From Pectinatus cerevisiiphilus (GTDB lineage Bacteria > Bacillota > Negativicutes > Selenomonadales > Selenomonadaceae): 52,793 bases of DNA. A program made the position numbers and the translations under genes. The notes below the pieces were generated by a model, which searched no databases, was not told where the DNA came from, and saw only the letters and a program-made list of their open reading frames with translations. Location of the stretch: positions 1-52,793 of the forward strand of contig NZ_SMAA01000016.1 of the NCBI RefSeq assembly GCF_004341685.1. The letters are read 5' to 3'. This document shows, piece by piece, positions 13,435 through 30,021 of the stretch (the first letter of the stretch is position 1; each line of letters begins with the position of its first letter).

Positions 13435-13511
13435 TGGTGCGCCAAGCAGGATTCGAACTTGCGACACACGGCTTAGAAGGCCGTTGCTCTATCCAACTGA
13501 GCTATTGGCGC
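13435..13511 (-). tRNA. tRNA-Arg (TCT)
   Basis: The minus strand folds as a standard cloverleaf: acceptor GCGCCAA/TTGGCGC, D-arm AGCTCAGTTGGATAGAGC, anticodon TCT within CCTTCTAAG, T-arm with TTCGAAT, and encoded CCA (13437-13435). Confidence 0.95.
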
Positions 13512-13624: not shown

Positions 13625-14431
13625 TCATGTGTTTAGTACTTTTTTTATAGTATTGGTAAAATTTACTAAAACTTCACTTGAGTTGGCAAATGTTTTTATA
13701 CATAATTTATCGTCATTAATAAGACTGGCACCGCCGTCAATTTCTGTAGCCTCAGTAATAAGTTGTCTAATTTTTTCCAGCAGTTTTTTACTATTAGCAA
13801 AATTAAAAATAAGTAATGTGGCTAAATGTGTATAGCCTTCGTAAAAGCCAAAAGAAACTAACTTTTGCTGCATGGGAAGGTAGCGGGTATTTTCAAAATA
13901 GCAGAGATTTTCGTCTTCGTAAATTTTTATTGAGGATATATATTTCCTATAAAGGAACCTTTCATGGTGCGCAGTTCTTCCACTGCTTAGTATTTCACTG
14001 AAAAACAGCTTGGCAGTATTATTGGCGAGATGAATAACGGTACTATCAACAAAAGCGGATTGAGCGAAGGGAATAGTTGGCTGTGGCATATAAAAAAGAC
14101 GTGTATCATTAGCCATAGTAATTTCTATGTTGCGTGTGCCCTCGGCATCGGCTAGCATTTTATGAATTTTTTCATAAGATTGTGATGTTAATTCTACATC
14201 GGCACCTTTTTCTAAACAGATATTTATCTTTTGTTGGTCTCCAGCCATAATTCCTGCTGAAGCACTTAGAATCATAAAGCGTGCGCTTGTTGCCGAGGTA
14301 AATGGCTTCATTATCTTGAAAGGAGCTGTAAAATAGACATCATCAAGAACAGTTGTTTTTCGTCGGTAGCAAAATCTTAGGATTAGGTCTGAAGTTTTAC
14401 CATAAGCATTGTTATTTTCCTGCTTAAGCAT
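13625..14431 (-). CDS. ureD: urease accessory protein UreD (UreH)
   Basis: A 268-residue protein, the last gene of the urea operon. UreD is the scaffold that binds apo-urease and, with UreF and UreG, channels nickel to the active site. Family landmarks are [50 protein letters not shown], and [15 protein letters not shown]. It overlaps ureG by eight bases, so it is translationally coupled. Placing ureD last, after ureG, is common in Firmicutes. Length and motifs look complete. Confidence 0.95.
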
Positions 14432-15032
14432 CTTCTAATAGTACCTCATGTTTTATCCAGGCTATGATTTCATCAGTGCCCTTATTTTCACGAATATTGG
14501 TAAATAAAAATGGTTTTTTGCCGCGCATTTTCTTGGCATCCCGTTCCATTATGGTGAGGTTAGCACCAACGTATGGTGCTAGGTCAATTTTATTGATAAT
14601 TAAGAGATCAGAGCGCATAATGCCTGGCCCACCTTTACGCGGAATTTTATCACCTTCAGCCACGTCAATGACAAAGATTGTTTTGTCGGCAAGCTCTGGG
14701 CTAAATGTAGCGGACAAATTATCACCGCCGCTTTCAATAAAGAAAATTTCCACATCAGGGAATTTATTTTCCATTTCTTCAATAGCTTCAAGATTCATGG
14801 ATGCATCTTCACGGATTGCCGTATGCGGGCAACCACCCGTTTCTACGCCAATGACACGTTCTTTTTCCATTACAGAATTCTTAATTAGAAATTCTGCATC
14901 TTCCTGTGTGTAAATATCATTAGTAATAACACAGATGCTGTATTTGTCGGCCAATCTGCGTGTTAGTGCTTCTATCAGGGCTGTCTTGCCGGAACCAACA
15001 GGGCCGGCTACACCAATTTTTACATAACTCAT
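14424..15032 (-). CDS. ureG: urease accessory GTPase UreG
   Basis: A 202-residue SIMIBI GTPase that supplies GTP hydrolysis for nickel insertion. It has the P-loop GPVGSGKT at residues 10-17, the metal-binding CPH motif within [19 protein letters not shown], the switch [15 protein letters not shown], and the guanine motif NKID. No N-terminal His-rich tail is present, so nickel storage may depend on UreE. It lies 18 bases after ureF and overlaps ureD. Complete and highly typical. Confidence 0.98.
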
Positions 15033-15050
15033 AAAATTTATATTCCTTTC

Positions 15051-15752
15051 CTATGACATATACAGCCGAGAGTATAATGTTTCATGCTGCATTGACCTAA
15101 TGTCAAATCCTGGTGTTGATAAACAAAAATCATCTATTGATAAAGAGGCGAGCTTATCCAGTAATTGGGGGAAATGGGTACTGCAATTACGCAATATTTG
15201 CTGGCCTGCGGTTTGGCTGAGGGGGATGCTTTTTACACAAGTGTTTATCAGTCCTGCTGTTTGTGCGTATATATAGTGAAGCAGGCAGTCTGGCAGTGCA
15301 ACACCGGCTGCTGAACAGAAAACACCATAGGCAGCCGGATGTATATGTGAACAAGGCTGGCAAACATATTTCTCAAAAATATCGTCAATTGATGTTAACG
15401 GGAGTGAACGTATTGTTTTTATAAATCTGGAGGCCAATTTGATTGTGGCTTGGCGAAGTTCGGAGGAGGCCTTTGCGGCTAGAAATGTTCTTTCTAGAGC
15501 GGAAATGCTTGCTAAATCATGCTTTTGTGTATGATTATAGGATAGCTTGACAGTTAACAGTTCACTATATAAAAAATTTGTTGATATATATTGCAGTAAC
15601 CATTCCTGCGCGCTTGCGGCATCTTTTATTAATTCATGTTGTATATAGGTTTCGAGCCCATAGGAATGGACATAGGCACCGATGGGGAAAAGTACATCAT
15701 TTATTTGCAGTAATAAAAATTTTTTGGCGATATCATTCATGTGCGACTGCAT
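15051..15752 (-). CDS. ureF: urease accessory protein UreF
   Basis: A 233-residue all-helical protein that regulates UreG on the UreD-urease complex. The diagnostic start is LLLQINDVLFPIGAYVHSYGLETY. Later segments FLAAKASSELRQATIKLASRFIKT and HPAAYGVFCSAAGVAL are also typical. It overlaps the end of ureE by 20 bases, so coupling is likely. An alternative ATG four codons in would shorten it slightly. Sequence identity to known UreF proteins appears low, as usual for this family. Confidence 0.94.
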   Translation of the reverse strand: MQSHMNDIAKKFLLLQINDVLFPIGAYVHSYGLETYIQHELIKDAASAQEWLLQYISTNFLYSELLTVKLSYNHTQKHDLASISALERTFLAAKASSELRQATIKLASRFIKTIRSLPLTSIDDIFEKYVCQPCSHIHPAAYGVFCSAAGVALPDCLLHYIYAQTAGLINTCVKSIPLSQTAGQQILRNCSTHFPQLLDKLASLSIDDFCLSTPGFDIRSMQHETLYSRLYMS

Positions 15753-16248
15753 TTGTATACGATCCTTTCATATGGACATGAGAGTGATTGTGTCCAGCTG
15801 AAGCACATATCCGCCAGCGATTATCAAGCTGCACATTTTCAATGTTAAAGGAAAGATTTAATTTTTGCAGTAATTGTTCAAAGGGACGATCATAGGGGAT
15901 AATAAATTTTTCGGTTTCCGGCATGTAATAAAATGGTGCATGGCGGTTGCCTGTTTCATAACACAAAGTAATGAGCTTAATTTTGTTATCACATGATAAA
16001 ACTAGGCATTTACTGGGAACGATGTCGACCACAATAATATCATTTTCAACTACAGCTAAAACATCACCTTGCCATAACCCGCGATTTTGGTCTTGGGGTG
16101 ACAAACGTATGGCTACGTCCCGGCCTTTTTGACTTGTCAGGCGATGTAGTTTATTTTTGCTGTCATACCATTCGATATTTACTCTATCTATAGAATTATT
16201 TTTGAATTGGGGATCATTGCTATTTCCTATTATATGTTCTATCAGCAT
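15733..16248 (-). CDS. ureE: urease accessory nickel-binding protein UreE
   Basis: A 171-residue metallochaperone that hands nickel to the UreDFG complex. It has an N-terminal peptide-binding-like domain and a C-terminal nickel-binding domain ending in GHNHSHVHMKG, a short His-rich tail. The DVLAVVENDIIVVDIVP and CYETGNRHAPFYY segments, with the conserved metal-site His, are typical. The ATG at 16248 is chosen because AGAAGGA lies upstream and it begins 17 bases after the ureC stop. A TTG at 16269 would overlap the ureC stop codon. Confidence 0.94.
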   Translation of the reverse strand: MLIEHIIGNSNDPQFKNNSIDRVNIEWYDSKNKLHRLTSQKGRDVAIRLSPQDQNRGLWQGDVLAVVENDIIVVDIVPSKCLVLSCDNKIKLITLCYETGNRHAPFYYMPETEKFIIPYDRPFEQLLQKLNLSFNIENVQLDNRWRICASAGHNHSHVHMKGSYTNAVAHE

Positions 16249-16265
16249 TGGATGTTCATTCCTTC

Positions 16266-17984
16266 TCAAAACAGATTGTATAATTGCGCTAATGCTAATT
16301 CTTTTGCCGGTTTGCTGACTAAATGGACACCGTCAACATGTACAGCATACGTTTCTGGATCAACATCAATATGTGGTGTAGCATTGTTAAGAACCATGTC
16401 TTTTTTACTGATTGCTCGACAGTTGTGTACGGGAAGGACAGTTTTTTCTAGTTTTAGTTTTTCTTGGATGCCATTTTTCCATGCTGCTTTAGAAACAAAA
16501 GTTAGGCAGCTGGTATATTTCGCTTTGCCGTCCGCACCAAACATATGACGATAAAAAACTGGCTGGGGTGTAGGAATTGATGCATTGGGATCGCCCATCT
16601 TTGCTGCGGCAATCATACCACCTTTTATGATCATTTCTGGACGTACACCAAAAAAGGCAGGATGCCAAATAACAAGATCGGCAAATTTACCTTTTGTTAT
16701 AGATCCTACATAGTCAGCAATCCCCTGCATTATTGCAGGATTGATCGTATATTTGGCTATATAGCGGCGAATACGGAAATTGTCATTTTCTCCTTTTTCT
16801 TCTGGCAAGCGGCCGCGTTCTTTTTTCATTTTATCAGCAGTCTGCCAAGTGCGGGTGATTACTTCACCGACACGTCCCATTGCCTGCGAATCAGAACTCA
16901 TCATGCTGAAAACACCCATATCATGTAAAACATCTTCCGCGGCAATAGTTTCTGGCCGTATTCGTGAATCGGCAAAAGCGACATCTTCTGGTATGCGGCT
17001 GTCAAGATGATGGCAGACCATCAGCATGTCAAGATGTTCGTCAATGGTGTTGACAGTAAAAGGCATCATGGGGTTGGTGGAAGAAGGCAGGATGTTAGGA
17101 AATCCCGCGGCTTTAATAATATCTGGGGCATGACCGCCGCCCGCTCCTTCTGTGTGATAGGTATGAATCGTTCTGCCAGCGATAGCTTTAAGCGTATCTT
17201 CAACGCATCCGGCTTCGTTGAGGGTGTCTGTATGGATAGCCGTTTGTACATCGTATTTATCTGAAACTTGTAGACAGGCATCAATTACTGCTGGTGTTGC
17301 GCCCCAATCTTCATGGATTTTTAGGCCTAAAGCACCGGCTAATATCTGTTCTTCTAATGGTCGTGTATTGGAACAGTTACCTTTGCCTAAAAAACCAAGA
17401 TTCATTGGATATTCGTCAGCTGCGCGCAGCATTTGCGCAAGATTCCATGGCCCCGGAGTACAAGTGGTGGCATTAGTTCCGTCGGCTGGACCTGTTCCGC
17501 CGCCGATCATTGTAGTGATACCGCTATAAAGGGCTGTATCTATCTGCTGCGGACTAATAAAATGAATGTGTGAGTCGATTCCACCAGCAGTAACAATCAT
17601 ACCTTCGGCGGCTATGGCTTCAGTCGAGGCACCGATGGTCATACCCGGAGTTACTTTATCCATAATATCCGGATTACCGGCTTTACCGATACCGGCAATT
17701 TTACCATCTTTGATTCCTATATCAGCTTTAAATATACCATATGCATCGACAATCAAGGCATTGGTTATAACAAGGTCGAGATCGCCGTCACTACTGAGCG
17801 TATTTACTGATTGTCCCATGCCGTCACGTAGTGTTTTGCCACCGCCAAACTTTGCTTCATCACCATAATAGGTATAATCTTTTTCTACCTCCAGAAAAAG
17901 GTCTGTATCAGCTAGGCGTACTTTATCACCCGTTGTCGGGCCGAACATCATTGCATATTCGGATGCGGTCATTTTACGGCTCAT
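16266..17984 (-). CDS. ureC: urease subunit alpha (catalytic)
   Basis: A 572-residue catalytic subunit that hydrolyses urea to ammonia and carbamate in the cytoplasm. All active-site signatures are visible: SHIHF (two nickel-binding His), [13 protein letters not shown] with the lysine that is carbamylated to bridge the two nickels, [25 protein letters not shown], the flap MVCHHLD with the catalytic His, and [16 protein letters not shown] with the nickel-binding Asp. Length matches the family. It overlaps ureB by four bases (ATGA). Nothing suggests loss of function. Confidence 0.99.
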
Positions 17985-18361
17985 AGTTCTGTTCCTTTCT
18001 GTATGAAATCAGCGTTGGCAGCTTTTTCTATGGCCAGACGTTGAGTGTCTTCATTGATGTGGCCACATGTTAAGGCATTAAAACCAAAGACCCGCTGCTT
18101 ACCACCCATAGTGGTTAATTGTACAGTTTTCTTCTCCCCCGGTTCAAAACGTACGGATGTTCCGGAAGGAATATCAAGCCTCATACCAAAAGCTTGGCTT
18201 CTATTAAACAGTAGACAACGATTTACTTCAAAAAAGTGAAAATGGGAGCCTACTTGTACCGGTCGGTCACCTGTATTACTGACAGCTAGTGTTTTGGTAG
18301 GACGGTTGCTATTTATTTCTATATCTCTATCAGCAGGTATGATTTCCCCTGGAATTACCAT
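17981..18361 (-). CDS. ureB: urease subunit beta
   Basis: A 126-residue structural subunit of the trimeric urease unit. The family start is [22 protein letters not shown], followed by [19 protein letters not shown] and [18 protein letters not shown]. It is slightly longer than the usual 100-110 residues because of a C-terminal extension after the conserved [12 protein letters not shown], as seen in several Firmicutes. Separate ureA and ureB genes mark the bacterial three-subunit type. Confidence 0.97.
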
Positions 18362-18375
18362 TTTTTATGTCCCCC

Positions 18376-18678
18376 TTATTGAATTGGATTGTGTACTGTT
18401 ACTAATTTTGTTCCGTCGGGAAAGGTCGCTTCTATCTGTACTTCATGGATCATAGAAGGAACCTCTTCCATAACATCATCACAAGTCAATATTTTACGGC
18501 CAGCCCGCATTAGTTCTGTCACCGTTTGGCCATCTCTGGCTAACTCCAGTAATTCCCTGCTGATATAGGCGATAGCTTCTACATAATTTAGCTTGATACC
18601 ACGTTCTTTACGTTGCTTGGCCACCGTTCCGGCATAATGTAGTAATAATTTCTCCATATCTTTAGGCGCTAAATGCAC
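18376..18678 (-). CDS. ureA: urease subunit gamma
   Basis: A 100-residue subunit with the standard pattern: [45 protein letters not shown], and the end [20 protein letters not shown]. It is complete. It starts 20 bases after urtE, which ties the transporter and enzyme genes into one transcript, and ends 14 bases before ureB. Confidence 0.98.
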
Positions 18679-18698
18679 AATATTTTTCCTCCCCGTAT

Positions 18699-19388
18699 TT
18701 AAATGGCGATCTTGCTCTTAATATCTTCTTGGTCCATACTGCTGACAAGACCCTGGGCAACAATATTTCCTTTATCCATAACATAATATTCATCAGCAAT
18801 ATTGAGGATGAACTCTAGATATTGTTCTACAATTAAAATAGTATATCCTTCCTTTTTTAATTGTAAGATAACCCTGCCGATATCCTGGATAATAGATGGT
18901 TGGATTCCTTCTGTTGGTTCGTCCAGCAATAATAGCTTGGGGTGGGCGACGAGCGCCCTTGCGATAGCAAGCTGTTGCTGCTGGCCACCGCTGAGATTGC
19001 CTCCTTTGCGGGTAAGCATTTCTTTTAATATGGGAAATAATTCATAAATTTCAGGAGAAATATTACCATTTCCGTTATTTACTTCTAAGCCAAGCTGTAG
19101 GTTTTCTTCTACGGTCATCTGTGGGAAAATATCTCTGCCTTGTGGGACATAGCCGATACCTGCACGTGCACGGAAATAAGTCGGTTTATTGATCAGTTCT
19201 TTATTTTGGAAGAGGATACTGCCGCTTGGAGTGCGGACAAGCCCCATAATGCTTTTTAAAAAAGTGCTTTTGCCTACACCGTTTCTTCCTAAAAGACATA
19301 CGATATGTCCTTCTTGTACTTTAAGGTTAATATCTTTTAAAATGATGCTTTCACCATAATAGGCTTGTAATTTATCAACATTAAGCAC
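18699..19388 (-). CDS. urtE: urea ABC transporter ATP-binding protein UrtE
   Basis: A 229-residue ATPase of the branched-chain amino acid (LivF) type, specific in context to urea. It has the Walker [11 protein letters not shown]-loop region [19 protein letters not shown] (a UrtE hallmark), signature [15 protein letters not shown], Walker [15 protein letters not shown] and H-loop IVEQYLEF. I place the start at the GTG 19388, giving [14 protein letters not shown], because GGGGTGG lies five bases upstream. A GTG at 19403 is possible. Either way it overlaps the end of urtD. Confidence 0.94.
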
Positions 19389-20136
19389 AGTTTCCACCCC
19401 CACGTCCTAAATAGACATCAATTACTTTAGGATTGTTTTGTACTTGACTGACGCTGCCTTCGTCTAAAATACGTCCCTCATGCATTACCGTTACCTTACT
19501 GGCATAGTCCCGTACAAATTCCATATCATGTTCAACGACAATCACAGTACAATGATGGGCAATGCTTTTCAAAAGTTCGCCCGTTTTTATTGTTTCTTTG
19601 CGTCCCATGCCGGCTACAGGTTCATCAAGTAAGATGAGCTGTAAATCCTGCACCAAGAGCATAGCTATTTCAAGCCATTGTTTTTGCCCATGGGAGAGAT
19701 CAGCAGCTTTCTTGTCACAGTAATCTTTTAGATCTACTAAATCTAATATATCATCAATTTTTTCTTTTTGTGCTTTAGTTATAGGCTGGAAAAGTGATGC
19801 CATGATACTGCGGTCATTGACAACTGACACCTCCATATTTTCGTAAACGGACAGGCTCGTAAATACAGAAGGTACCTGAAACTTGCGGCCAATACCGATA
19901 TTGACCAGCTTATGTTCAGGATAGTGCATGATGTTTTTGTCGCCATCGAAAATTATAGAACCCTGCTGTGGACGTATACGTCCACAAATAGCATCGAGTA
20001 AAGTCGTTTTACCGGCACCGTTTGGACCTATGAAAAAGCGTATTTCACCTTTTTCCACTTTTGTAGTAACTCCATTTAATGCGCGGAATCCATCAAAAGA
20101 TATTATCAGATTATTTATTTCTAAAATTGTTCCCAT
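19381..20136 (-). CDS. urtD: urea ABC transporter ATP-binding protein UrtD
   Basis: A 251-residue ATPase of LivG type. It has Walker A GPNGAGKTT, the segment GIGRKFQVPSVFTSLSVYENMEVS, signature LSHGQKQWLEIAMLL (the variant SHGQ found in UrtD), Walker B LILLDEPVAGMGRKET and H-loop VVEHDMEFV. It partners with UrtE on the cytoplasmic face of the UrtBC channel. The ATG at 20136 follows GAGG at a good distance. A TTG at 20148 would overlap the site. Confidence 0.95.
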   Translation of the reverse strand: MGTILEINNLIISFDGFRALNGVTTKVEKGEIRFFIGPNGAGKTTLLDAICGRIRPQQGSIIFDGDKNIMHYPEHKLVNIGIGRKFQVPSVFTSLSVYENMEVSVVNDRSIMASLFQPITKAQKEKIDDILDLVDLKDYCDKKAADLSHGQKQWLEIAMLLVQDLQLILLDEPVAGMGRKETIKTGELLKSIAHHCTVIVVEHDMEFVRDYASKVTVMHEGRILDEGSVSQVQNNPKVIDVYLGRGGGNCA

Positions 20137-20144
20137 AATATACC

Positions 20145-21248
20145 TCAATTCACAGATGAAGCTTTTTCTGTTGCTTTCCTTTTTTTAATAGGGCATGTTA
20201 TTTTACTGGCGTATTTTTTGACTAAACCTACAAGGCCTTCAGGCATAAATATGACCACTATAACGAAAGTTAAACCCAAAAAATATGACCATACTTCAGG
20301 AAAAGATTCACTGATACCACTTTTTAGACCATTGACGAGAATTGCACCAATAACAGCACCGATTAAAGTCCCTCTGCCACCGATAGCTACCCATATTACC
20401 ATTTCGATAGAGGGAATAATACCCATTTCCGCGGGTGAAATAATACCGACTTGGGGAACAAAAATCGCACCAGCTATTCCGGCGATAACAGCAGAAGAAA
20501 CGTAGACGAAGATTTTATAAACCGCAGGATCATAACCAGAAAAACGCACCCTGTTTTCTCCGTCACGAATTGCTACCAAAATTTTGCCGAGACGATGTTT
20601 GACTAAAAAATGGCAGTATAAATAAACTAAAACCAAAAGAAATATAGCAGCATAATATAAAATATATTTGGTATTATCGGTTGCTAACGGCATGCCGAAC
20701 ATTGTGCGAAAACCGGTAAGACCGTTGGTGCCACCGGTATAGGCTTGCTGGCCAATAAAAAATACTACAAAAATAAGCGATAAGGCTTGCGATAAAATGG
20801 AGAAGTATACACCGCGAATACGGTTGCGAAATGTAAGGTAGCCGATGATAAATGCCAAGAGGGCAGGGACGAGAACAATTAAGGCAAGCGATAACGGATT
20901 GCTAAAGGGAGCCCAGACAGTAGGCAAATTTTCCAGCCCGCTCCATGACATGAAATCAGGTAATTTACCATGGGCTGCTTCCATTTTTAAATACATGCCC
21001 ATTGCATAAGCACCAAGACCAAAAAATACACCGTGCCCTAGGCTTAAAATCCCTGTATAGCCCCAGATTAAATCAATACCAATCGCCAAGATAGCATAGG
21101 CAATAAACTTACCTAAAAGGTTTATCCTAAATACAGATAAGAACAATGGGGCTATTAAAAGTAATAATACGATAATTAAAAAGGTCTGACTCGATGGTGT
21201 TTTGAAAAAGTTTTTTGTAGTCAATTGTGCGGCCCCCTTTCTATTCAT
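20145..21248 (-). CDS. urtC: urea ABC transporter permease UrtC
   Basis: A 367-residue membrane protein of LivM type with about ten helices. Landmarks are IDLIWGYTGILSLGHGVFFGLGAYAMGMYL and the transporter loop ILVAIRDGENRVRFSGYDP, then GGRGTLIGAVIGAILVNGLKS and FMPEGLVGL. The C-terminus is basic and cytoplasmic. It overlaps urtB by eight bases. With UrtB it forms the urea pathway in the inner membrane. Confidence 0.95.
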   Translation of the reverse strand: MNRKGAAQLTTKNFFKTPSSQTFLIIVLLLLIAPLFLSVFRINLLGKFIAYAILAIGIDLIWGYTGILSLGHGVFFGLGAYAMGMYLKMEAAHGKLPDFMSWSGLENLPTVWAPFSNPLSLALIVLVPALLAFIIGYLTFRNRIRGVYFSILSQALSLIFVVFFIGQQAYTGGTNGLTGFRTMFGMPLATDNTKYILYYAAIFLLVLVYLYCHFLVKHRLGKILVAIRDGENRVRFSGYDPAVYKIFVYVSSAVIAGIAGAIFVPQVGIISPAEMGIIPSIEMVIWVAIGGRGTLIGAVIGAILVNGLKSGISESFPEVWSYFLGLTFVIVVIFMPEGLVGLVKKYASKITCPIKKRKATEKASSVN

Positions 21249-22149
21249 CCAATGAACGACTGTGGATTGTAAACAATCCTTTGGGACGCCATTGTAAAAA
21301 TAAAATAACTAAAGTGAATACCAGAACCTTGCCTAATGTTGCATCTGTTAGAAATTCCAATGTAGTATTACCAGTACCAATTAGAAATCCACCGGCAATA
21401 GTTCCCCACAAACTACCAACTCCGCCAAGTACGACAACCATAAAAGTATCTACAATATAATTGGTGCCGAGCGTCGGACCTATTGAACCAAGCAATGTCA
21501 GGGCGCATCCTGCAATGCCTGCTAAACCGGAGCCGAAGGCAAAGGTATAGGCATCTATTCTGCGTGTATTTATACCCAGACTGGCTGCCATAGCACGATT
21601 TTGCATAACTGCCCGTATTTTCCTGCCATAATTACTGCGATACATTAGATAATATATTACCACCATGCAAGCAATGACCATCAGCATAATAAAAAGACGC
21701 TTGTAAGGCAATTGTAAACCTGGATGCACTAAAAATGCACCATTCAACCAGTCAGGGCTTTTAACATCTACATTTGGTGCACCAAAAATGCTGCGGGCCA
21801 ATTGCTGTAATATAAGGCTTACACCCCATGTAGCCAATAAACTGTCTAAAGACCTTCCGTATAAGTGGCGGATAACTAATCTTTCCAATATCCAGCCTAA
21901 TACACCAGCCAATAGAAAAGATGCAGGGATAGCTGCGAAAAAGTAAAAATTAAAGAATGAAGCAGGTAAATATTGACTGAAAAAATTTTGTACCATATAA
22001 GCGGCATAAGCACCAATCATTATAAACTCACCATGTGCCATATTAATTATTTTCATAAGACCGAAGGTGATTGCCAACCCCAATGCAGCCAGCATGAAAA
22101 TTGAACTTACACTAATACCGTTAAAAATCTGAAGTAGATAAGTATCCAT
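21241..22149 (-). CDS. urtB: urea ABC transporter permease UrtB
   Basis: A 302-residue membrane protein of LivH type. It starts with LLQIFNGISVSSIFMLAALGLAITFGLMKIINMAHGEFIMIGAY, a strongly conserved segment, and ends with VVVLGGVGSLWGTIAGGF and FLQWRPKGLFTI. The RAVMQNRAMAASLGINTRRID loop contacts the ATPase. It is separated from urtA by 85 bases that contain a terminator-like hairpin, so it is likely less expressed than the binding protein. Confidence 0.95.
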   Translation of the reverse strand: MDTYLLQIFNGISVSSIFMLAALGLAITFGLMKIINMAHGEFIMIGAYAAYMVQNFFSQYLPASFFNFYFFAAIPASFLLAGVLGWILERLVIRHLYGRSLDSLLATWGVSLILQQLARSIFGAPNVDVKSPDWLNGAFLVHPGLQLPYKRLFIMLMVIACMVVIYYLMYRSNYGRKIRAVMQNRAMAASLGINTRRIDAYTFAFGSGLAGIAGCALTLLGSIGPTLGTNYIVDTFMVVVLGGVGSLWGTIAGGFLIGTGNTTLEFLTDATLGKVLVFTLVILFLQWRPKGLFTIHSRSLDE

Positions 22150-22180
22150 AGTATTTACTGCGGCCTCCTTTTGTTAATAA

Positions 22181-22217
22181 AAATAAAGCGGTATGTTTTT
22201 AAATACCGCTTTATTTT
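22181..22217 (-). terminator. intercistronic hairpin between urtA and urtB
   Basis: AAATAAAGCGGTAT (22181-22194) is complementary to ATACCGCTTTATTT (22203-22216), and on the minus strand a T-rich tract follows. As an internal partial terminator or an RNA stabiliser it would raise UrtA relative to the membrane subunits. Confidence 0.65.
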
Positions 22218-22234
22218 ATTATTCAATTAATCAA

Positions 22235-23488
22235 CTAATTAGCAAGTCCTTTTGCCCAATCATATGTTTTTAAGAATGGATCGGGGCGTATGGGATCTGG
22301 TGTGCTCCAAACTTCTTTAATCATTCCATCTGGTTGGACTTCACCAATACGGACTTTTTTCCAAAGGTGTTGATTTTCTCCTTCTATTTTTACAGTTCCT
22401 TCTGGTGCTTTAAATTCTAAGTCTTTTGCTGCTTCTTTTACCTTGTCAACATCAGTTGAACCAGCTTTTTCTACAGCTGCAGCCCATAAGTACACTGCGT
22501 CATATGCTGCTTCTATGGGATCATCTGTTACACGGTCTTGTCCATAACGAGCTTTATAATTGGTAACGAAGTCTTTATTTTCAGGTGTATCAGTTGTTTG
22601 GTAATAGTTCCAGGAAACGAGCTGTCCTGCCATGTTTTCTGCGCCAATACCGCGGACTTCTTCTTCAGCAATGCTGACTGAACAGGTAATGAGATCTTTT
22701 TCCGTTATTCCTGCATCCTTGAGCTGCTTAAAGAAAGCTACATTACTGTCACCGTTAAGTGTATTAAATACTACATCAGGTTTTTCTTCTTTGATCTTGT
22801 TGATGATTGTACTATAATCTGTATGACCCATTGGCGTATATTCTTCCCCTACGACCTGACCGCCTTCTGCTTGAAGTTCAGCTTTGATTATCTTATTAGC
22901 AGTACGCGGGAATACATAATCGGAACCGATCAAAAAGAATTTTTTGCCTTTGTTTTTTAGCAGCCAATCAACTGCTGGGACAATCTGTTGGTTCGGGGCG
23001 GCACCTGTGTAAAAAATGTTTGGTGATGATTCCATCCCTTCGTATTGTACAGGGTACCATAAGAGTCCATTGTTACTTTCAACTACAGGCAATACTGCTT
23101 TGCGGCTGGCTGAGGTCCAACAACCAAAAATAGTTGCTACCTTATCCTGCTGTAAGAGTTTTTTTGCTTTTTCAGCAAAAACTGCTGGATCTGAAGCGCC
23201 ATCTTCAGTAACAGGCTCTATTTTTTTACCTAAAACACCGCCTTTGGCATTGATTTCATCAATAGCCATCATTTCTGCATCTTTTACAGAAACTTCACTT
23301 ATTGCCATTGTACCGCTTAGTGAATGGAGGATACCAACTTTGATCGCATCCTTGGAATCGGTTCCTGTGTCACTAGATTGTGATACCTGCGAATTGCCGC
23401 AACCACTTAAAAGAGCTGATGAAACAAAAAGAGCTGTCATTGTTATAGTCGCACTTTTTTTCATTTTGGAGAAAAAATTGATTTTCAT
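22235..23488 (-). CDS. urtA: urea ABC transporter substrate-binding lipoprotein UrtA
   Basis: A 417-residue periplasmic binding protein. It has a signal peptide with lipobox LLSGC (Cys30), so it is anchored as a lipoprotein. The mature domain follows the UrtA pattern: [38 protein letters not shown], then [41 protein letters not shown] and [20 protein letters not shown] near the end. These segments separate UrtA from amide and leucine binding proteins. AAGGAAGG precedes the ATG. A long intrinsic terminator lies only 33 bases before the start codon and leaves no room for a promoter between, so expression must depend on read-through. Confidence 0.96.
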
Positions 23489-23521
23489 ATGATTCCATTC
23501 CTTCCTTGTAACAGCAAAAAT

Positions 23522-23562
23522 AAAAAAACGCTGTGGTACGTATATGCATACATACCACAGCG
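23522..23562 (-). terminator. intrinsic terminator in the urtA leader
   Basis: CGCTGTGGTA (23562-23553 on the minus strand) pairs with TACCACAGCG, with five more inner pairs and a four-base loop. Seven T follow (23528-23522). The urtA ATG is 34 bases further on. Confidence 0.85.
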
Positions 23563-23598
23563 TCGTTGCTGTTTGCTATATTGTTTTTAAGACAATAT
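23558..23598 (-). promoter_or_regulatory. tandem hairpins preceding the urtA leader terminator
   Basis: On the minus strand ATATTGT/ACAATAT (23598-23578) is followed seven bases later by CAGC-AACGAC-GCTG (23571-23558). The 3' arm of the second is also the 5' base of the terminator stem, so the two folds exclude each other. The loop AACGAC has A at position 1 and G at position 4, the pattern required in ANTAR antiterminator RNAs. The first hairpin has a seven-base loop that does not fit. Function is inferred. Confidence 0.45.
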
Positions 23599-23690
23599 CA
23601 GTTTAACAATTTTTGCTATCAGAAAAAACCATATAAAAAAGATATTTTCCAGTAAAAAAACGATAATTATCAATTCCTTTGTAAAAGTAC

Positions 23691-24437
23691 TTATTTTTTA
23701 TCATTAATATTTCTTTTATATTCACCAGGTGTCATTTTAGTATAAAGCTTAAACAGGCGGCGAAAATAATCGGGACTTGCATAACCTAAACGGTCGCTGA
23801 TTTCATAATTTTTATATTTACCAGTACGTAATAAGTATTTTGCATGTTCCATTTTTATTTTAGTTAAGTATTCATTAAAATTTTCACCCACCTTTTGTTT
23901 GAAATATTTTCCGGCATAATCACGGCTTATTGAAAATTCTTGGGCGATACTGTCTAAAGTGATATTGTCTTCAATGTGGTCAAGGATAAAGCGATATATT
24001 TTAGTGGCGATACTATTCTTGTTCATTTCATATTTTTCGGCTATTTCTTCTTGCAGATACTTTTCACTTGTAAAATAGTCACGCACACGTTGTAAAAGTA
24101 ATTGAAGCTCTTTGTCTACAGGCGGTTTTGTCATATAATCAAATATGCCTAGGCGTATGCCTTGCTGGGCATATTCAAAGTTATTGTAAGTGCTTAAGAT
24201 AATAATACAACTGCGGATTTTTTTTTGACGCAACTCTTGCAGAAAGGAAATTCCGTCCATGCCGGGCATTCGTATATCAGTTATAATAAGGTCTACCTTT
24301 TGGTGGGTTAAAAATTGCAAAGCCTCTTTTCCATCAGCTGCTTCTCCTGCTATACAAAACCCATATGCCTGCCAGTTAAAGCGTTTCAGTATATATCTTT
24401 CAGCACGATCATCATCTACCAGTAATACCTGATACAT
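23691..24437 (-). CDS. response regulator with AraC-type output domain
   Basis: A 248-residue YesN-like regulator. The receiver domain has MYQVLLVDDD, phospho-acceptor Asp54 in DLIITDIRMPGMDG, and Lys in FDYMTKPP. After a helical linker, the C-terminus carries two AraC helix-turn-helix units: ITLDSIAQEFSISRDYAGKYFKQKVG and YEISDRLGYASPDYFRRLFKLYTKMTPGEY. It starts at ATG 24437 (GGAGAG upstream), one base after the stop of the hybrid kinase, so the pair is translated together. It is directly upstream of urtA in the same direction and may control the urea operon; that link is inferred from position. Confidence 0.92.
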   Translation of the reverse strand: MYQVLLVDDDRAERYILKRFNWQAYGFCIAGEAADGKEALQFLTHQKVDLIITDIRMPGMDGISFLQELRQKKIRSCIIILSTYNNFEYAQQGIRLGIFDYMTKPPVDKELQLLLQRVRDYFTSEKYLQEEIAEKYEMNKNSIATKIYRFILDHIEDNITLDSIAQEFSISRDYAGKYFKQKVGENFNEYLTKIKMEHAKYLLRTGKYKNYEISDRLGYASPDYFRRLFKLYTKMTPGEYKRNINDKK

Positions 24438-24438
24438 A

Positions 24439-27087
24439 TTATCGCTCTCCATTTTTTCCTATTTCCTTAGATAATAAAATTGCTGCCGCGGGAAAGTCAT
24501 AGGTATTTACTTTCTGCCATAAGCGTTTGTAAAAATTTTCGCCGAAAAAACTACGTAGGGAATCTCGCATTTTGCGGCAGGTTTCTTTCGCTGTAAAATC
24601 ACCACTTTGCAGCATTAAAAGAAAATTACGTATATCATCTTTAGATGCATGTGGGGGTGTTATAGCTGCTGGCTCCTTAGTCACATTTTCTGTAAGATAC
24701 TGTTGGATTGCTTGCATCGATTCATTGAATGTACGGCTAAAATCGGTACCGAGCTTTTCCGCGTTTACTTTGTCTAACGCGGCAGAGTAGGATAATATTG
24801 CTGCATATAATCCATTTGCCCCAATATTACCAGATGCTCCCTTTAGTTCATGCAAAAGGTTGGCTGCCTTTTGATATTCTTTATGGCGGACATAATATTT
24901 GATTTTGCGCTCATCCTTTATATGGTTATCATAAAAGAGGGTGAGAATTTTTATATATGTGGCTTTTTTCCCTTTTAATTTTTTAATAATACTTTGTGGA
25001 TCGAAAAAAACCGCTGATTTTGGTACGGGAGACTGTATATTTTTTATAGAAATTTTTAAGACCTTGGCTAGTATTTTTAATAGTTTATCTAGTTGCAGTG
25101 GTTTTTCCAGATAACCTGCCATCCCTGCTGCGAGGACTTTCTCCTGTACATCGCCGAGAACATCCGCAGATAAGGCCACAATAGGCGTGTCCGTATTTTG
25201 CGAATCCTTTTGCAGGTGTGCCGCCGTTTCATAACCATCCATTATAGGCATGCGGATATCCATTAGAATAAGAGCATATTTGTTTTTCTTAGCTGCTGCA
25301 AGAGCCTTTTTACCACTATTGGCAGTAGTGACACTAAAGCCAAATCCCGAAAGTATTTCCTCAGTCATATGCAGGTTAACTTCATTATCTTCAACCAAAA
25401 GGAGTTTCATTCCGTGAAAATTTATATTTGTAGAAAGTGGTTTTTCCTGCACGATAGTTTTGTCTGTGCGTTGCACGGGAAAAGAAAAAATAAATGTTGA
25501 ACCGTGGCCAGGTTCGCTATTTACTTCAATTTTTCCCTTCATCAACAAAGCAATTTGCTGACTGATAGCTAGACCGAGGCCTGTACCACCGAAACGGCGG
25601 GAAGTTGAAATGTCCGCTTGTGTAAATGCTTCAAATAAATGCGTCTGCGCTTCTTTGGCAATACCTATACTGCTATCTGTAATGGACATCTCCAGCCATT
25701 CTTGCTCCTTTTGCAGTTTTTCCACGACTTTAAGGTTAATAAAGCCCTTTTCTGTAAATTTTACTGCGTTGGATAATAGATTTAAGGTAACTCTTTTTAA
25801 ACGAAAAGCATCACCACAAATAATATCTGGAACAGATTCACCGATTTCTAAAGAAAAAACCAATCCTTTCTTTTTGGCTTCAACATCAATCATTGTGTAT
25901 AGTTCTTTTAATACCTGCCGAAAACTAAAAGGAGCTGATTCCAGCTCTATTTTTCCTGATTCAATTTTAGAGAAATCAAGAATTTCATTGACAATAGCCA
26001 ATAAATTTTTAGCGGCCAGACCGATGTTATTTGTATAAGTTAATATTTTTGTTGTAGGGCGCTGCTGCTCCAACATGTAATGATAGCCGATAATTGTATT
26101 TAAAGGTGTCCGTATTTCGTGGCTCATATTTGCCAGAAATTCACTTTTAGCTGCGTTTGCCTTTTCTGCTTCTTCTTTCGCAAGAATCATGCGCTTTTCT
26201 GTTTCCTGGCGCCGTTTTAATTCTTGTTGGAAGGAAATATACAATGTATTAAAGGTGTCTGCTAAAATACGCAGTTCTTTGGTACCTTCTGCCTTTAAAG
26301 AAAAATGACGCTGGAATGAAAATCCTTCTAACTTTTTTGTATAATGTTGGATGGGATGGGTTATATACAGCATGAAAATACGCATTAAAACTAGAATTTC
26401 GGCAATGATTAGACATGCCAGAATGACTTGTAAAACAAAAGCATGATAAAGATTTTGCCGGGCATGCAGCAATTCATTTTCCAAACGATTGTTCATATTC
26501 TGTTGGAAAGCGGCAATTGGTTTCATAATATGTTCTTTGCTGGTATCATAGTTATCGTCGAACATGATTTCAACAGCTTTGGCTTTTTTGGCATTGTCTG
26601 ATAATGCGGCATCGCTCTCTGTTAATTTTTTAGTTGCTACTGGTGGTGGCATTAATTCCTCTGGTACATGTTCTGATTCTAATACCAATCGCATGGAACG
26701 GCGTTCGGTTTCTACCAGTTCATCAGAATATTTTTTCGCCTCTTCCAGTAACAATAATTCATTTTCTGGCGCGTTCGCTTCCTGCATTTTTTCGATAACG
26801 TAATCCCGTGTTTTGGTCTTTTCAATTTCCTGCCAATAATTTTCCATATGTGAACGGTCACCGGTAACTGCATATTTACGGCCTTCCGCTGTTAAATAGT
26901 CAGATGCTTCTGCCAGTGATTCTCCCAGTTGCTGGAACATTATACGATGTTCTTCGGCTGTTTTTTCCGCATTAATGTTTATTTTCATATATATACTGCT
27001 AATGGCTAACAAAGCTGTAATCATGAAAAAACTGATTGCCATGAATAGGCGCAGCTTTGATTGCGTCATAACAAAATTTCTTTTCAT
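24439..27087 (-). CDS. hybrid histidine kinase with receiver and Hpt domains
   Basis: An 882-residue membrane sensor. Residues 13-35 and about 215-241 are membrane helices that enclose a helical periplasmic sensor domain. Then come a HAMP-like linker, HisKA with His323 in MSHEIRTPLN, an ATPase domain with N-box NLLSNAVKFTEKG and G2 box GGTGLGLAI, a receiver with Asp610 in LILMDIRMP, and an Hpt domain with His746 in LLHELKGASGNIG. The phosphate can thus pass His-Asp-His to the adjacent AraC-type regulator. The G1 box reads DSSIG instead of DxGIG (residues 471-475), a change at a normally fixed glycine. The signal is unknown; the urea operon downstream suggests nitrogen status. Confidence 0.94.
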   Translation of the reverse strand: MKRNFVMTQSKLRLFMAISFFMITALLAISSIYMKININAEKTAEEHRIMFQQLGESLAEASDYLTAEGRKYAVTGDRSHMENYWQEIEKTKTRDYVIEKMQEANAPENELLLLEEAKKYSDELVETERRSMRLVLESEHVPEELMPPPVATKKLTESDAALSDNAKKAKAVEIMFDDNYDTSKEHIMKPIAAFQQNMNNRLENELLHARQNLYHAFVLQVILACLIIAEILVLMRIFMLYITHPIQHYTKKLEGFSFQRHFSLKAEGTKELRILADTFNTLYISFQQELKRRQETEKRMILAKEEAEKANAAKSEFLANMSHEIRTPLNTIIGYHYMLEQQRPTTKILTYTNNIGLAAKNLLAIVNEILDFSKIESGKIELESAPFSFRQVLKELYTMIDVEAKKKGLVFSLEIGESVPDIICGDAFRLKRVTLNLLSNAVKFTEKGFINLKVVEKLQKEQEWLEMSITDSSIGIAKEAQTHLFEAFTQADISTSRRFGGTGLGLAISQQIALLMKGKIEVNSEPGHGSTFIFSFPVQRTDKTIVQEKPLSTNINFHGMKLLLVEDNEVNLHMTEEILSGFGFSVTTANSGKKALAAAKKNKYALILMDIRMPIMDGYETAAHLQKDSQNTDTPIVALSADVLGDVQEKVLAAGMAGYLEKPLQLDKLLKILAKVLKISIKNIQSPVPKSAVFFDPQSIIKKLKGKKATYIKILTLFYDNHIKDERKIKYYVRHKEYQKAANLLHELKGASGNIGANGLYAAILSYSAALDKVNAEKLGTDFSRTFNESMQAIQQYLTENVTKEPAAITPPHASKDDIRNFLLMLQSGDFTAKETCRKMRDSLRSFFGENFYKRLWQKVNTYDFPAAAILLSKEIGKNGER

Positions 27088-27113
27088 AGATATATCCTCA
27101 CTGCAAATTGTAC

Positions 27114-27144
27114 AAAAAAAGCCTGACCAAATATGTGGTCAGGC
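27114..27144 (-). terminator. intrinsic terminator in the leader of the hybrid kinase gene
   Basis: GCCTGACCA and TGGTCAGGC form a perfect 9-bp stem around six bases, followed on the minus strand by seven T. It lies between a good promoter and the ATG, and no minus-strand gene lies upstream that it could end. Confidence 0.83.
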
Positions 27145-27153
27145 ACCATTGCC
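27142..27153 (-). promoter_or_regulatory. hexaloop hairpin overlapping the kinase leader terminator
   Basis: On the minus strand GGC-AATGGT-GCC. Its 3' arm is the first three bases of the terminator stem. The loop AATGGT fits AAYGRY, as in the urtA leader and in the leader at 36430-36444. The stem is only three pairs, so stability is uncertain. Confidence 0.38.
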
Positions 27154-27168
27154 AAAATCTATGTCCAT

Positions 27169-27197
27169 ATTATAAGCCAATTGCCTTAAAATGACAA
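27169..27197 (-). promoter_or_regulatory. promoter of the hybrid kinase and response regulator
   Basis: TTGTCA (27197-27192), 17 bases, TATAAT (27174-27169). Transcription should start near 27162, giving a 75-base leader that contains the terminator. Confidence 0.8.
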
Positions 27198-27218
27198 ATG
27201 TATTATTTTTTTATACCA

Positions 27219-27246
27219 TTGCAGAAAAAAATGAATATGTTAAAAT
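27219..27246 (+). promoter_or_regulatory. promoter of the receiver-kinase gene
   Basis: TTGCAG (27219-27224), 16 bases, TAAAAT (27241-27246). It is divergent from the hybrid kinase promoter; their -35 boxes are about 20 bases apart, so they may share a regulator. Confidence 0.55.
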
Positions 27247-27280
27247 GATATCTAAAAATATAGAAGAAAAGGTGTTTTTT

Positions 27281-28396
27281 ATGGCCGTTCCTTATGAGAA
27301 ACAAATCCTCATAGTAGATGATTCGCCGGAAAGTATCGAATTGGTAAGCAGTATTTTGAAACGGTCTGATTTTACTATCCGGGTTGCTAAAAGTGCTAAT
27401 TCTGCTTTACAATTATTGCAATTCCGGTTGCCACACATTATTTTGCTTGATGTTACTATGCCGGAAATGGATGGTTTTGATTTTTGTAGATTATTGAAAA
27501 ATGATTCTAAATATAAAAAAATACCTATTATTTTTTTGACAGCCAGTAATGATGAAGAAAGTATAAAAAAAGCATTTGAGTTGGGCGCACAGGACTATGT
27601 TACAAAGCCATTTAAACCAGCGGAATTAATCGCACGAGTTAATACGCAGTTGAAACTGGCACAGCGAACAGAAGAATTGGAAAATGCATACAAAAATCTT
27701 GATAGCTTTTGTTATTCTGTTGCGCATGACCTTAAAGCACCATTACTTTCTATAAAGCGTTTAATTGATTTCTTACTGCATGATTGTGCTGCAAAATTCA
27801 CTATAGATGAAAGGGAACTTGCTGCAAATATACAAGAAAAATCACATGAAGTAACAGATATTATCGATCATTTATTAGAGTTTTCACATGCAGGCAGTAA
27901 AGAGATACATATGCATAAAATTGATCCGCGGCCGGTTTTTTTGACAACATATAATGAATTGCGGGCATTGGAACCGTCCAGAAAAATCTGTTTTCATATA
28001 GAGGAGTTACCTTGTATATATGCGGATCCAATTCTTTTTAAACTTTTGTGCCAAAACATTTTGTCTAATGCTTTAAAATATACGAGGAAAAAAGAACACG
28101 CCATCATTAAAATTAGTTGTCAGCAAACAGAAGATTATCTTGTCTTTTCTGTTAAAGATAACGGTGCAGGTTTTGATATGCGTTATGTAAATCGTCTGTT
28201 CCATGTATTTGAACGGCTTCATTCAGAAAGTGAATTTGAAGGTACTGGTGTCGGCCTTGCCATCTGCCAACGCATTTTGCAAAGGCAGGGAGGAAAGGCT
28301 TGGATGACAGGGCAGCTTGAAAAGGGCGCGACTTTCTTTTTTTCTTTACCATGCATAGAAAATTTTGCAGATGATACTATCGATAATAATATATAA
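27281..28396 (+). CDS. soluble receiver-histidine kinase
   Basis: A 371-residue cytoplasmic protein. The N-terminal receiver has ILIVDDSPES, Asp57 in HIILLDVTMPEMDG, and Lys in DYVTKPFKP. It is followed by HisKA with His149 in YSVAHDLKAPLLSIKRL and a normal ATPase domain (NILSNALKYT, DNGAGFD, EGTGVGLAICQRI). There is no membrane or PAS sensor, so its input is probably phosphorylation of its own receiver by another kinase, with the divergent hybrid kinase the natural candidate. The ATG at 27281 follows AAGGTG. A longer frame from 27191 would include the promoter and is rejected. Confidence 0.92.
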   Translation: MAVPYEKQILIVDDSPESIELVSSILKRSDFTIRVAKSANSALQLLQFRLPHIILLDVTMPEMDGFDFCRLLKNDSKYKKIPIIFLTASNDEESIKKAFELGAQDYVTKPFKPAELIARVNTQLKLAQRTEELENAYKNLDSFCYSVAHDLKAPLLSIKRLIDFLLHDCAAKFTIDERELAANIQEKSHEVTDIIDHLLEFSHAGSKEIHMHKIDPRPVFLTTYNELRALEPSRKICFHIEELPCIYADPILFKLLCQNILSNALKYTRKKEHAIIKISCQQTEDYLVFSVKDNGAGFDMRYVNRLFHVFERLHSESEFEGTGVGLAICQRILQRQGGKAWMTGQLEKGATFFFSLPCIENFADDTIDNNI

Positions 28397-28407
28397 GATA
28401 ACCATAC

Positions 28408-28447
28408 AAAAAGGCTCCCTGCTATTATCTGTGCAGGGAGCCTTTTA
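28408..28447. terminator. bidirectional terminator between the receiver-kinase and aspA
   Basis: GGCTCCCTGC (28413-28422) and GCAGGGAGCC (28433-28442), with A-run before and T-run after, so it serves both converging genes. Confidence 0.9.
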
Positions 28448-28466
28448 ATAATGTAATTTACAAGTT

Positions 28467-29855
28467 TTATTCAGCAATACCAGGATGTGTCATTTGTGCA
28501 GGAGAAAGGATATGTTCCAATTTTTCTTTTGGTAAGAGACCTTTTTTCAGCACTATTTCACGGATAGGCGCACCTGTAGCATATGCTTCCTTGGCAAGCA
28601 TGGACGCATTTTCGTAACCAATATGTGGTAAAAGCGCAGTGACAATACCAACGCTTCCATCTAACCACTTCTGGCATTGTTTGCTGTTTGGCTGCAAATC
28701 GATAAGCAGTTTTTCCACAAATGTATTGACAGCGTTTGTCAGATAATTAATGGAGTTGAAGATGTTAAAAGAAATTACTGGTTCCATTACATTGAGTTCA
28801 AACTGGCCGTTTTCAACACCGAGAGAAACAGCTAAATCATTAGCTATAACTTGGTAGCAGGTCTGGTCAAGTACTTCTGCAATAACAGGGTTTACTTTTC
28901 CTGGCATGATGGAAGAGCCTGGTTGACGAGGCGGTAATTTGAGTTCATTGATGCCACAGCGCGGGCCGGAAGCCATGAGCCGGAAATCATTGGCCATCTT
29001 GATGAGAACAAGGGCGGTGACTTTTAATGAGGCTGACACATCGGCAAAACCATCAGTGTTATTTGTCGCGTCAATGAGATTGTCCGCAGTTTTGAAAGTT
29101 TCACCAGTAACAGTAGAAAGTGTTTTGGCTACAGCTTTAATATATGCAGGTTCGGCATTAAGGCCAGTACCTACGGCAGTAGCACCCATGTTTACTGTAT
29201 GGATAGAATCTACAGCTGTTTTAATGCGTTCAATACCACGGCGTACAGCAGAAGCATATGATCCCATTTCCTGTCCAAGCGCAATAGGTACAGCATCTTG
29301 TAAATGGGTACGGCCCATCTTTAAGATGTTTTTGTATTCTTCCGCTTTTTTATCTAATTCACTGGCAAGGCGTTCTAGTGCAGTGATAAGTTTCTTGCTT
29401 TTATAACTTATACATACTTTGACTGAAGTAGGGAATGAATCATTTGTTGATTGCGCCATATTGGCATGGTTATTAGGAGAAATAATATCATAGCTGCCTT
29501 TTTTTTCACCGAGTATTTCCAGCGCACGATTGACAAGCACTTCATTGACATTCATGTTTACAGAAGTACCAGCACCACCTTGTATTGGATCAACTGGGAA
29601 TTGGTCAAGCATCTTGCCTGCAATTATTTCATCAGCAGCTTGTATTAAAGCATCACCTATTTTTTTATCTAATCGACCGGTAGACATATTGGCTAAAGCG
29701 GCCGCTTTTTTTACTTTGGCAAAGGACTGAACAAAATCGGGATCAATGGTCTGTCCTGTAATATGAAAATTTTCTTTGGCACGAAGTGTCTGTACTCCAT
29801 AATATACGTCATCTGGTACATTTAATTCGCCAAGAAAATCGCGTTCTTTTCTCAT
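28467..29855 (-). CDS. aspA: aspartate ammonia-lyase
   Basis: A 462-residue member of the aspartase/fumarase superfamily that converts L-aspartate to fumarate and ammonia. The start MRKERDFLGELNVPDDVYYGVQT and LRAKENF are aspartase-like. The signature loop GSSIMPGKVNP holds the catalytic Ser. TSVNMNVNEV, NDSFPTS and GRTHLQDAVP build the active site. Fumarase C is the main alternative, but the N-terminus and overall pattern favour aspartase. It is separated by 166 bases from the dicarboxylate transporter upstream on the same strand. Aspartate supply plus fumarate respiration fits a Negativicute fermenter. Confidence 0.93.
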   Translation of the reverse strand: MRKERDFLGELNVPDDVYYGVQTLRAKENFHITGQTIDPDFVQSFAKVKKAAALANMSTGRLDKKIGDALIQAADEIIAGKMLDQFPVDPIQGGAGTSVNMNVNEVLVNRALEILGEKKGSYDIISPNNHANMAQSTNDSFPTSVKVCISYKSKKLITALERLASELDKKAEEYKNILKMGRTHLQDAVPIALGQEMGSYASAVRRGIERIKTAVDSIHTVNMGATAVGTGLNAEPAYIKAVAKTLSTVTGETFKTADNLIDATNNTDGFADVSASLKVTALVLIKMANDFRLMASGPRCGINELKLPPRQPGSSIMPGKVNPVIAEVLDQTCYQVIANDLAVSLGVENGQFELNVMEPVISFNIFNSINYLTNAVNTFVEKLLIDLQPNSKQCQKWLDGSVGIVTALLPHIGYENASMLAKEAYATGAPIREIVLKKGLLPKEKLEHILSPAQMTHPGIAE

Positions 29856-29950
29856 AATAGTACACCTTTCCTTTTTGTATAAAATGTTTTGTTAATTAGA
29901 AAATATAACTGGATAAACTTAGAATATATACTTATGATATATACTGTATA

Positions 29951-29960
29951 TTGTATACAA
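29951..29960. promoter_or_regulatory. palindrome upstream of aspA
   Basis: TTGTATACAA is a perfect 10-bp palindrome about 95 bases before the aspA start, in an AT-rich stretch with several overlapping TATA-like elements. A regulator site is possible; no protein is assigned. Confidence 0.3.
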
Positions 29961-30021
29961 CATCTTTACTCCTTCATTATACATCATTTGGATGAAAATT
30001 GATATACTTTCAAATGAATTT

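Follow-up and report, generated by a model that had tools for sequence, protein, structure and literature searches.

A single-hexaloop attenuator, probably read by an ANTAR regulator, before the urea uptake and urease operon of Pectinatus cerevisiiphilus

The window analysed here, a 52,793-nucleotide stretch of the Pectinatus cerevisiiphilus genome, carries on its minus strand an operon for urea uptake and hydrolysis. The first gene (22235 to 23488) encodes a urea ABC transporter binding protein with a Peripla_BP_5 domain (PF13433), which we take to be UrtA from knowledge of the family and the gene order. It is followed by urtB to urtE, ureA, ureB, ureC and the urease accessory genes (13625 to 22149); the urease alpha subunit was identified by Pfam and the other genes were named by reading their translations. 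Upstream of urtA, on the same strand, open reading frames and Pfam domains identify a response regulator with an AraC-type DNA-binding domain (23691 to 24452) and its partner, a hybrid histidine kinase (24439 to 27087). A tRNA gene (13438 to 13511, same strand) lies after the last urease accessory gene. Rfam also gives a match to 5_ureB_sRNA (RF02514, 110 bits, 17534 to 17831) antisense to ureC, on the plus strand; it may just mirror the conserved coding sequence of that gene.

A terminator scan places a stem-loop of 17 pairs, seven of them G-C, with a 4-nt loop at 23564 to 23527 of the minus strand, in front of urtA. The G+C-rich stem runs directly into a tract of seven T (23528 to 23522), the first one or two of which are able to pair into the stem, and this is the arrangement of an intrinsic terminator. 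The segment 23570 to 23520 folds with −26.8 kcal/mol, compared to −10.0 ± 2.5 kcal/mol for shuffled versions (z −6.7; none of 200 shuffles as good), and among the 16 terminator-like sites listed in 14000 to 30000 this stem is the longest, where shuffles of the same region yield 13.2 ± 3.3 terminator-like sites of any strength. The initial annotation had described a 15-bp stem with seven T; the terminator and its T tract hold up, and the stem is corrected to 17 pairs. The leader reads AACAGCAACGACGCTGTGGTATGTATGCATATACGTACCACAGCGTTTTTTTA on the minus strand, and 33 nt (23521 to 23489) then separate its last T from the start codon of urtA, the ATG at 23488. These 33 nt contain the ribosome binding site AAGGAAGG (23498 to 23505), of which AAGGA is kept in the congeneric alignment, and because this site takes up the gap a −35/−10 promoter cannot fit there, as the annotation had argued. 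Transcription of urt-ure must therefore begin upstream and pass the stem.

Two further observations concern the same leader. No Rfam 15 family reaches its gathering score between 23400 and 23800; matches below that score, among them microRNA families, rli56 and PyrR, were set aside as apparent chance fits to the long hairpin. Separately, AACAGCAA (23573 to 23566), just before the terminator, and TTGCTGTT (23517 to 23510), after the T tract, show perfect 8-bp complementarity, and the outer helix that they form can enclose the terminator in read-through RNA; a similar helix is found at locus L003, a partial one at L004 and none at L005.

With its end at 23691, the regulator gene stops 126 nt short of the terminator stem, close to the 130 bases first estimated. 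An alignment of this gap among four congeneric sequences, our own included, reveals conserved blocks at 23592 to 23662 of the minus strand, which are a candidate activator site and urtA promoter. The sole sigma-70-like site listed in the gap is weak (23673 to 23644, 9/12), and inspection by eye found no sigma-54 promoter before urtA. The start of urtA transcription need not precede the regulator gene, as the conserved blocks may act as a separate promoter, and activation of this promoter by the AraC-type regulator would fit the alignment.

The 5′ arm of the terminator is also used by a second hairpin, which is absent from the initial annotation: ACAGC[AACGAC]GCUGU, at 23572 to 23557 of the minus strand, with 5 bp enclosing a hexaloop. 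Bases 23564 to 23557 are common to both structures, and the two are mutually exclusive. A stem of at least 3 bp with A1 and G4 in its hexaloop, overlapping the 5′ arm of a terminator, is what is found here; in ANTAR systems a hexaloop of this kind forms the P2 antiterminator (PMC3369931). We searched for the UrtA protein in 60 related genomes and our own, and examined the nine best-scoring loci (L002 to L010, own included), which were thus picked by protein similarity and independently of the motif. Eight of the nine (L002 to L008 and L010) carry GCAnnGnnGC on the terminator 5′ arm, with the loops AACGAC, AAAGGC, AAAGAC, AATGAC, AATGAT, AACGGG, ATTGGA and AATGAG, so that A1 and G4 are present in all eight; the motif is absent before urtA of L009. 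As this alternative hairpin is conserved, the leader is best explained as a regulated gate, and the proposal of the annotation that transcription starts upstream and is gated before urtA is supported by the sequence. The urtA terminator of L006 has an A1/G4 hexaloop at its own apex, CGGG[AACGAT]CCCG, which may be a coincidence. In other phyla, 19 of 80 named urtA loci have a terminator in the scanned region, and three of these 19 (L085, L087 and L093) carry an A1/G4 hexaloop on the 5′ arm; since 21 of 471 terminators in those 80 loci do so as background, a one-hexaloop device at the urea loci of other phyla is only suggestive.

A second copy of the device, unnoticed in the initial annotation, precedes the kinase gene, which starts at 27087. 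Here the promoter-like sequence TTGTCA-17-TATAAT (27169 to 27197; 11/12, the best promoter-like site in 14000 to 30000) is followed on the minus strand by the hexaloop hairpin GGC[AAUGGU]GCC (27142 to 27153) and an overlapping terminator (27121 to 27144) with its T tract at 27120 to 27114. The hairpin was found by pattern and the terminator by scan, and the kinase leader recurs in two congeners (G001 and G003) with changes at loop positions 5 and 6 only. Because the kinase operon carries a gate of its own, transcripts that reach urt-ure from the kinase promoter would have to pass two gates.

These data bear on an alternative in which the stem before urtA ends the kinase-regulator operon as an ordinary intrinsic terminator, and expression of urtA depends on partial readthrough or on a weak promoter within the gap. 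The end of the regulator gene only 126 nt upstream and the lack of a strong sigma-70 promoter in those 126 nt are both in keeping with this, and ending the regulator gene is possible as a second role, as the annotation had allowed. However, a promoter does not fit between the terminator and urtA, the alternative hexaloop hairpin is conserved, and the same device follows the kinase gene's own promoter. Furthermore, at urtA of L007, L008 and L010 promoter-like sequence lies just upstream of the hexaloop hairpin, so that the device is not needed there to end another gene. We consider the plain terminator an unlikely explanation, and an attenuator before urtA very likely.

To place this leader among its relatives we consider the rest of the genome, where a hexaloop motif with a terminator-like end occurs 47 times, T-run duplicates counted, against seven for the reversed pattern. 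At least 15 of the sites are true leaders, 12 judged by eye and three added by a looser search. Besides urtA and the kinase-regulator operon, the former group precedes genes for a GlnH-like binding protein, an SsuC/TauC-like permease, a nickel-pincer isomerase, an enzyme of the hydantoinase/carbamoylase (allantoate amidohydrolase-like) family, HutD, a sodium:solute symporter, diaminopropionate ammonia-lyase, a xanthine permease, a TonB receptor and an amino-acid ABC system; the looser search added amtB, a dicarboxylate-type symporter and a membrane protein, all named by translation alone. Most of the targets are genes for nitrogen sources (urea, ammonium, ureides, purines and amino acids). Four congeners hold at least 107 distinct matches, and among the matches listed 58 have one strong hairpin and 42 of these lie in leader position. 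Such leaders precede nifH in G001 (by Pfam) and G002 (by the same first 50 residues), and amtB in G001 (by Pfam) and G003 (by translation). At L057 and L058, the promoters of the diaminopropionate lyase and xanthine permease genes have repeated GTCTCA / TCAAAATGAG-like letters surrounding their −10, which suggests an additional operator for the purine/ureide cluster.

The pairing of the hexaloop stem was assessed in two sets of sites. In 18 of 19 hexaloop sites, 84.4% of stem cells are paired, compared with 27–43% when one strand is slid, and the covariation score is 0.358 against 0.188 ± 0.044 after shuffling, with none of 500 shuffles as high. In the same 18 sites there is no excess of pairs changed on both sides (3 vs 2.9 shuffled) or of further pair types (7 vs 7.5). 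The larger set of 61 sites joins the 19 earlier sites to the 42 congeneric sites in leader position; in sites found by pattern the GC/GC pairs, A1, A2 and G4 are fixed by the pattern and provide no evidence. Outside these positions the third pair is formed in 52 of the 61 sites (40.1 expected, p = 5e-4) and the fourth in 38 (29.0 expected, p = 0.015), while the fifth (27 vs 25.2) and sixth (22 vs 25.2) do not differ from expectation. As the third and fourth pairs exceed expectation and the fifth and sixth do not, the hexaloop stem is short, 3–4 bp on average; by simple counting, P2 has only 2 bp in three of 19 leaders. A covariance model built from five leaders was rejected, having overfitted its own sequences: its 42 matches up to E 10 place the window's urtA leader at E 0.85 and lack the kinase leader.

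The described ANTAR targets have two hexaloops, P1 and P2, and a classical leader whose P1 is degenerate or was overlooked is accordingly the next reading to weigh. P1-like forms within 60 nt upstream occur in seven of 19 leaders, where 3.0 would be expected and 7 of 300 shuffles reach as many, but several of the seven fall in promoter sequence. At urtA of L003 and L005 a 4-bp P1-like form lies 17–18 nt upstream, and our own leader and that of L004 keep the loop letters without the stem; no P1 was found within 60 nt upstream of our own hairpin. Since two congeners carry the 4-bp form, a degenerate P1 is possible at urtA itself. The wider set leaves little transcribed room for a first hexaloop. 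Promoter-like sequence of at least 10/12 precedes 36 of the 61 sites (2.3 in shuffles), and the −10 of these ends 8–31 nt before the closing GC of the hairpin. With the transcript start assumed to be 7 nt past the −10, fewer than 15 nt are transcribed before the hairpin in 25 of the 36 sites and fewer than 17 nt in 27, where a 3-bp P1 needs 17 nt with the 5-nt linker of eut and 14 nt with a linker of 2 nt, the shortest given for actinobacteria (PMC8164766). In the L060 leader the distance from the predicted start to the hairpin is no more than about 3 nt. P1 was found in the transcribed part of none of the 36 promoter-bearing sites (0.45 expected), and a second hexaloop on the 3′ side of the first is at chance level (6 of 61 sites vs 3.3 expected, with a maximum of 9 in 100 shuffles). 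Taken together, these counts make a two-hexaloop leader improbable, slightly more so than a plain terminator, and favor a single hexaloop as the regulatory element.

The genome has a single ANTAR gene (C15:62593-62751, 73.5 bits). Its product combines an ANTAR domain (PF03861; 71.8 bits, cut-off 27.3) with a Response_reg domain (88.3 bits), and the adjoining gene encodes a kinase with GAF_PdtaS and HisKA_2 domains, giving a PdtaS/PdtaR-like pair. Among solved structures the regulator is closest to Rv1626 (1s8n, E 3e-54), and it matches EutV at E 3e-44. When the eight RNA-contact residues of EutV listed in PMC8934654 are mapped onto it, with an inferred numbering offset of 2, K143, Y164, M172 and R175 are identical, K147 is replaced by R, and R168, N173 and R177 differ. 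Each of the eight genomes whose urtA leader bears the motif has ANTAR, which says little because 130 of 150 genomes of the class have an ANTAR domain above the cut-off.

A second comparison uses the signature TTGACA-16/18-TAnnnT-6/36-GCAANGNNGC, searched in the same 150 genomes scored for ANTAR, with G015 (ANTAR E 7e-4) placed among those without. Within the family of the window the signature occurs in 18 of 22 genomes with ANTAR (65 matches, control 2) and in none of seven without (0 matches; Fisher p = 2e-4); counted by genus, it occurs in eight of ten with ANTAR and none of four without (p = 0.015). For the whole class the figures are 99 of 130 with ANTAR (260 matches, control 13) and seven of 20 without (10 matches, control 1), some of these genomes being incomplete. 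The link between signature and ANTAR is clear but not absolute, with kinship only partly removed. Another pattern gave a mean excess of 11.2 in 21 genomes of the family with ANTAR and 1.3 in seven without (p = 6e-4); it was set aside, as its GC/CG content is not matched by the reversed control and many of its matches lie inside genes. Two genomes (G045 and G062) hold many near-identical copies of TTGACA...CGCAAGGCGGC on many contigs, which inflate the counts for both and are probably a repeated element and not leaders. In three genomes of one genus with no ANTAR detected (G103, G110 and G125), a promoter is followed by GCAAAGGAGC in all three.

We propose that an ANTAR-read attenuator with a single hexaloop gates urt-ure as part of a nitrogen regulon, a reading we hold with good confidence; that the attenuator before urtA is read by an ANTAR protein is likely. 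By default the nascent RNA would fold as the terminator (23564 to 23522) and transcription would end before urtA. Under nitrogen limitation, the presumed signal, the PdtaS-like kinase would phosphorylate the PdtaR-like ANTAR regulator encoded beside it, and the active regulator would bind and hold the hexaloop hairpin (23572 to 23557). The held hairpin would occupy the first bases of the terminator 5′ arm, so that polymerase could continue into urt-ure. Leaders of this one-hexaloop kind would control many operons for nitrogen scavenging, that of the kinase and regulator upstream of urtA among them. With a little less confidence, we suggest that in this class the PdtaR-type ANTAR protein is probably a general nitrogen regulator, acting through one hexaloop at or near the 5′ end that overlaps a terminator, without a recruitment hairpin. 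It is very unlikely that an attenuator of this shape is read instead by another RNA-binding protein, a small-molecule aptamer or ribosome-linked events: although ANTAR binding is deduced from sequence and the signature occurs in some genomes without ANTAR, the leader has no Rfam family at gathering score, an aptamer would have little space in a hairpin of 16 nt, and the loop letters, the nitrogen theme and the family-level co-occurrence all fit ANTAR.

Consideration of the known ANTAR systems shows what is shared and what differs. The eut leaders of Enterococcus faecalis, read by EutV/EutW, have the same A1/G4 hexaloop stem overlapping the terminator 5′ arm and a REC-ANTAR regulator, but contain two hexaloops joined by a 5–12 nt linker (PMC3369931), where one is seen here, often near the predicted transcript start and with GC/GC closing pairs. 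The Klebsiella nasF leader also combines a hexaloop hairpin overlapping a terminator with a nitrogen operon (PMC3369931); it requires two hairpins for full NasR affinity, and binding of NasR to the lone P2 is weak, at around 12 µM (PMC7496416), whereas the leaders described here have one hexaloop. Mycobacterial PdtaS/PdtaR resembles the present pair, with Rv1626 as the best solved match of the regulator and GAF_PdtaS in the kinase, while actinobacterial ANTAR RNAs are dual stem-loops (PMC8164766), unlike these leaders. Ramesh et al. (2012) predicted ANTAR-controlled nitrogen regulons, for example in Desulfotomaculum acetoxidans, that likewise comprise several nitrogen operons per genome; their two-hairpin model is not expected to catch one-hexaloop leaders such as these. 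The EutV structure paper (PMC8934654), backed by PDB structures, takes a single hexaloop to be the minimal motif that ANTAR binds, and holds contact with both hexaloops to be necessary for antitermination.

The ANTAR targets listed in PMC3369931 already include urea transporters, and ANTAR-type gating of urea uptake is thus not new in itself; what is new here is the one-hexaloop architecture. Within the PMC full text examined, we found no description of a natural one-hexaloop ANTAR attenuator; the same full text yielded nothing on the ANTAR domain together with Negativicutes, and nothing on ANTAR with a hexaloop beyond the EutV and Streptomyces work.

If our proposal is correct, the requirement for two hexaloops in ANTAR antitermination is not general, and one RNA gate would be common to nifH, amtB, urt-ure and the ureide operons. 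The natural one-hexaloop leaders make the question of binding versus antitermination, as raised in PMC8934654, directly testable. These observations also suggest that searches for two hairpins would miss such regulons, which here cover the genes for urea and ammonium and, in congeners, those for nitrogenase.
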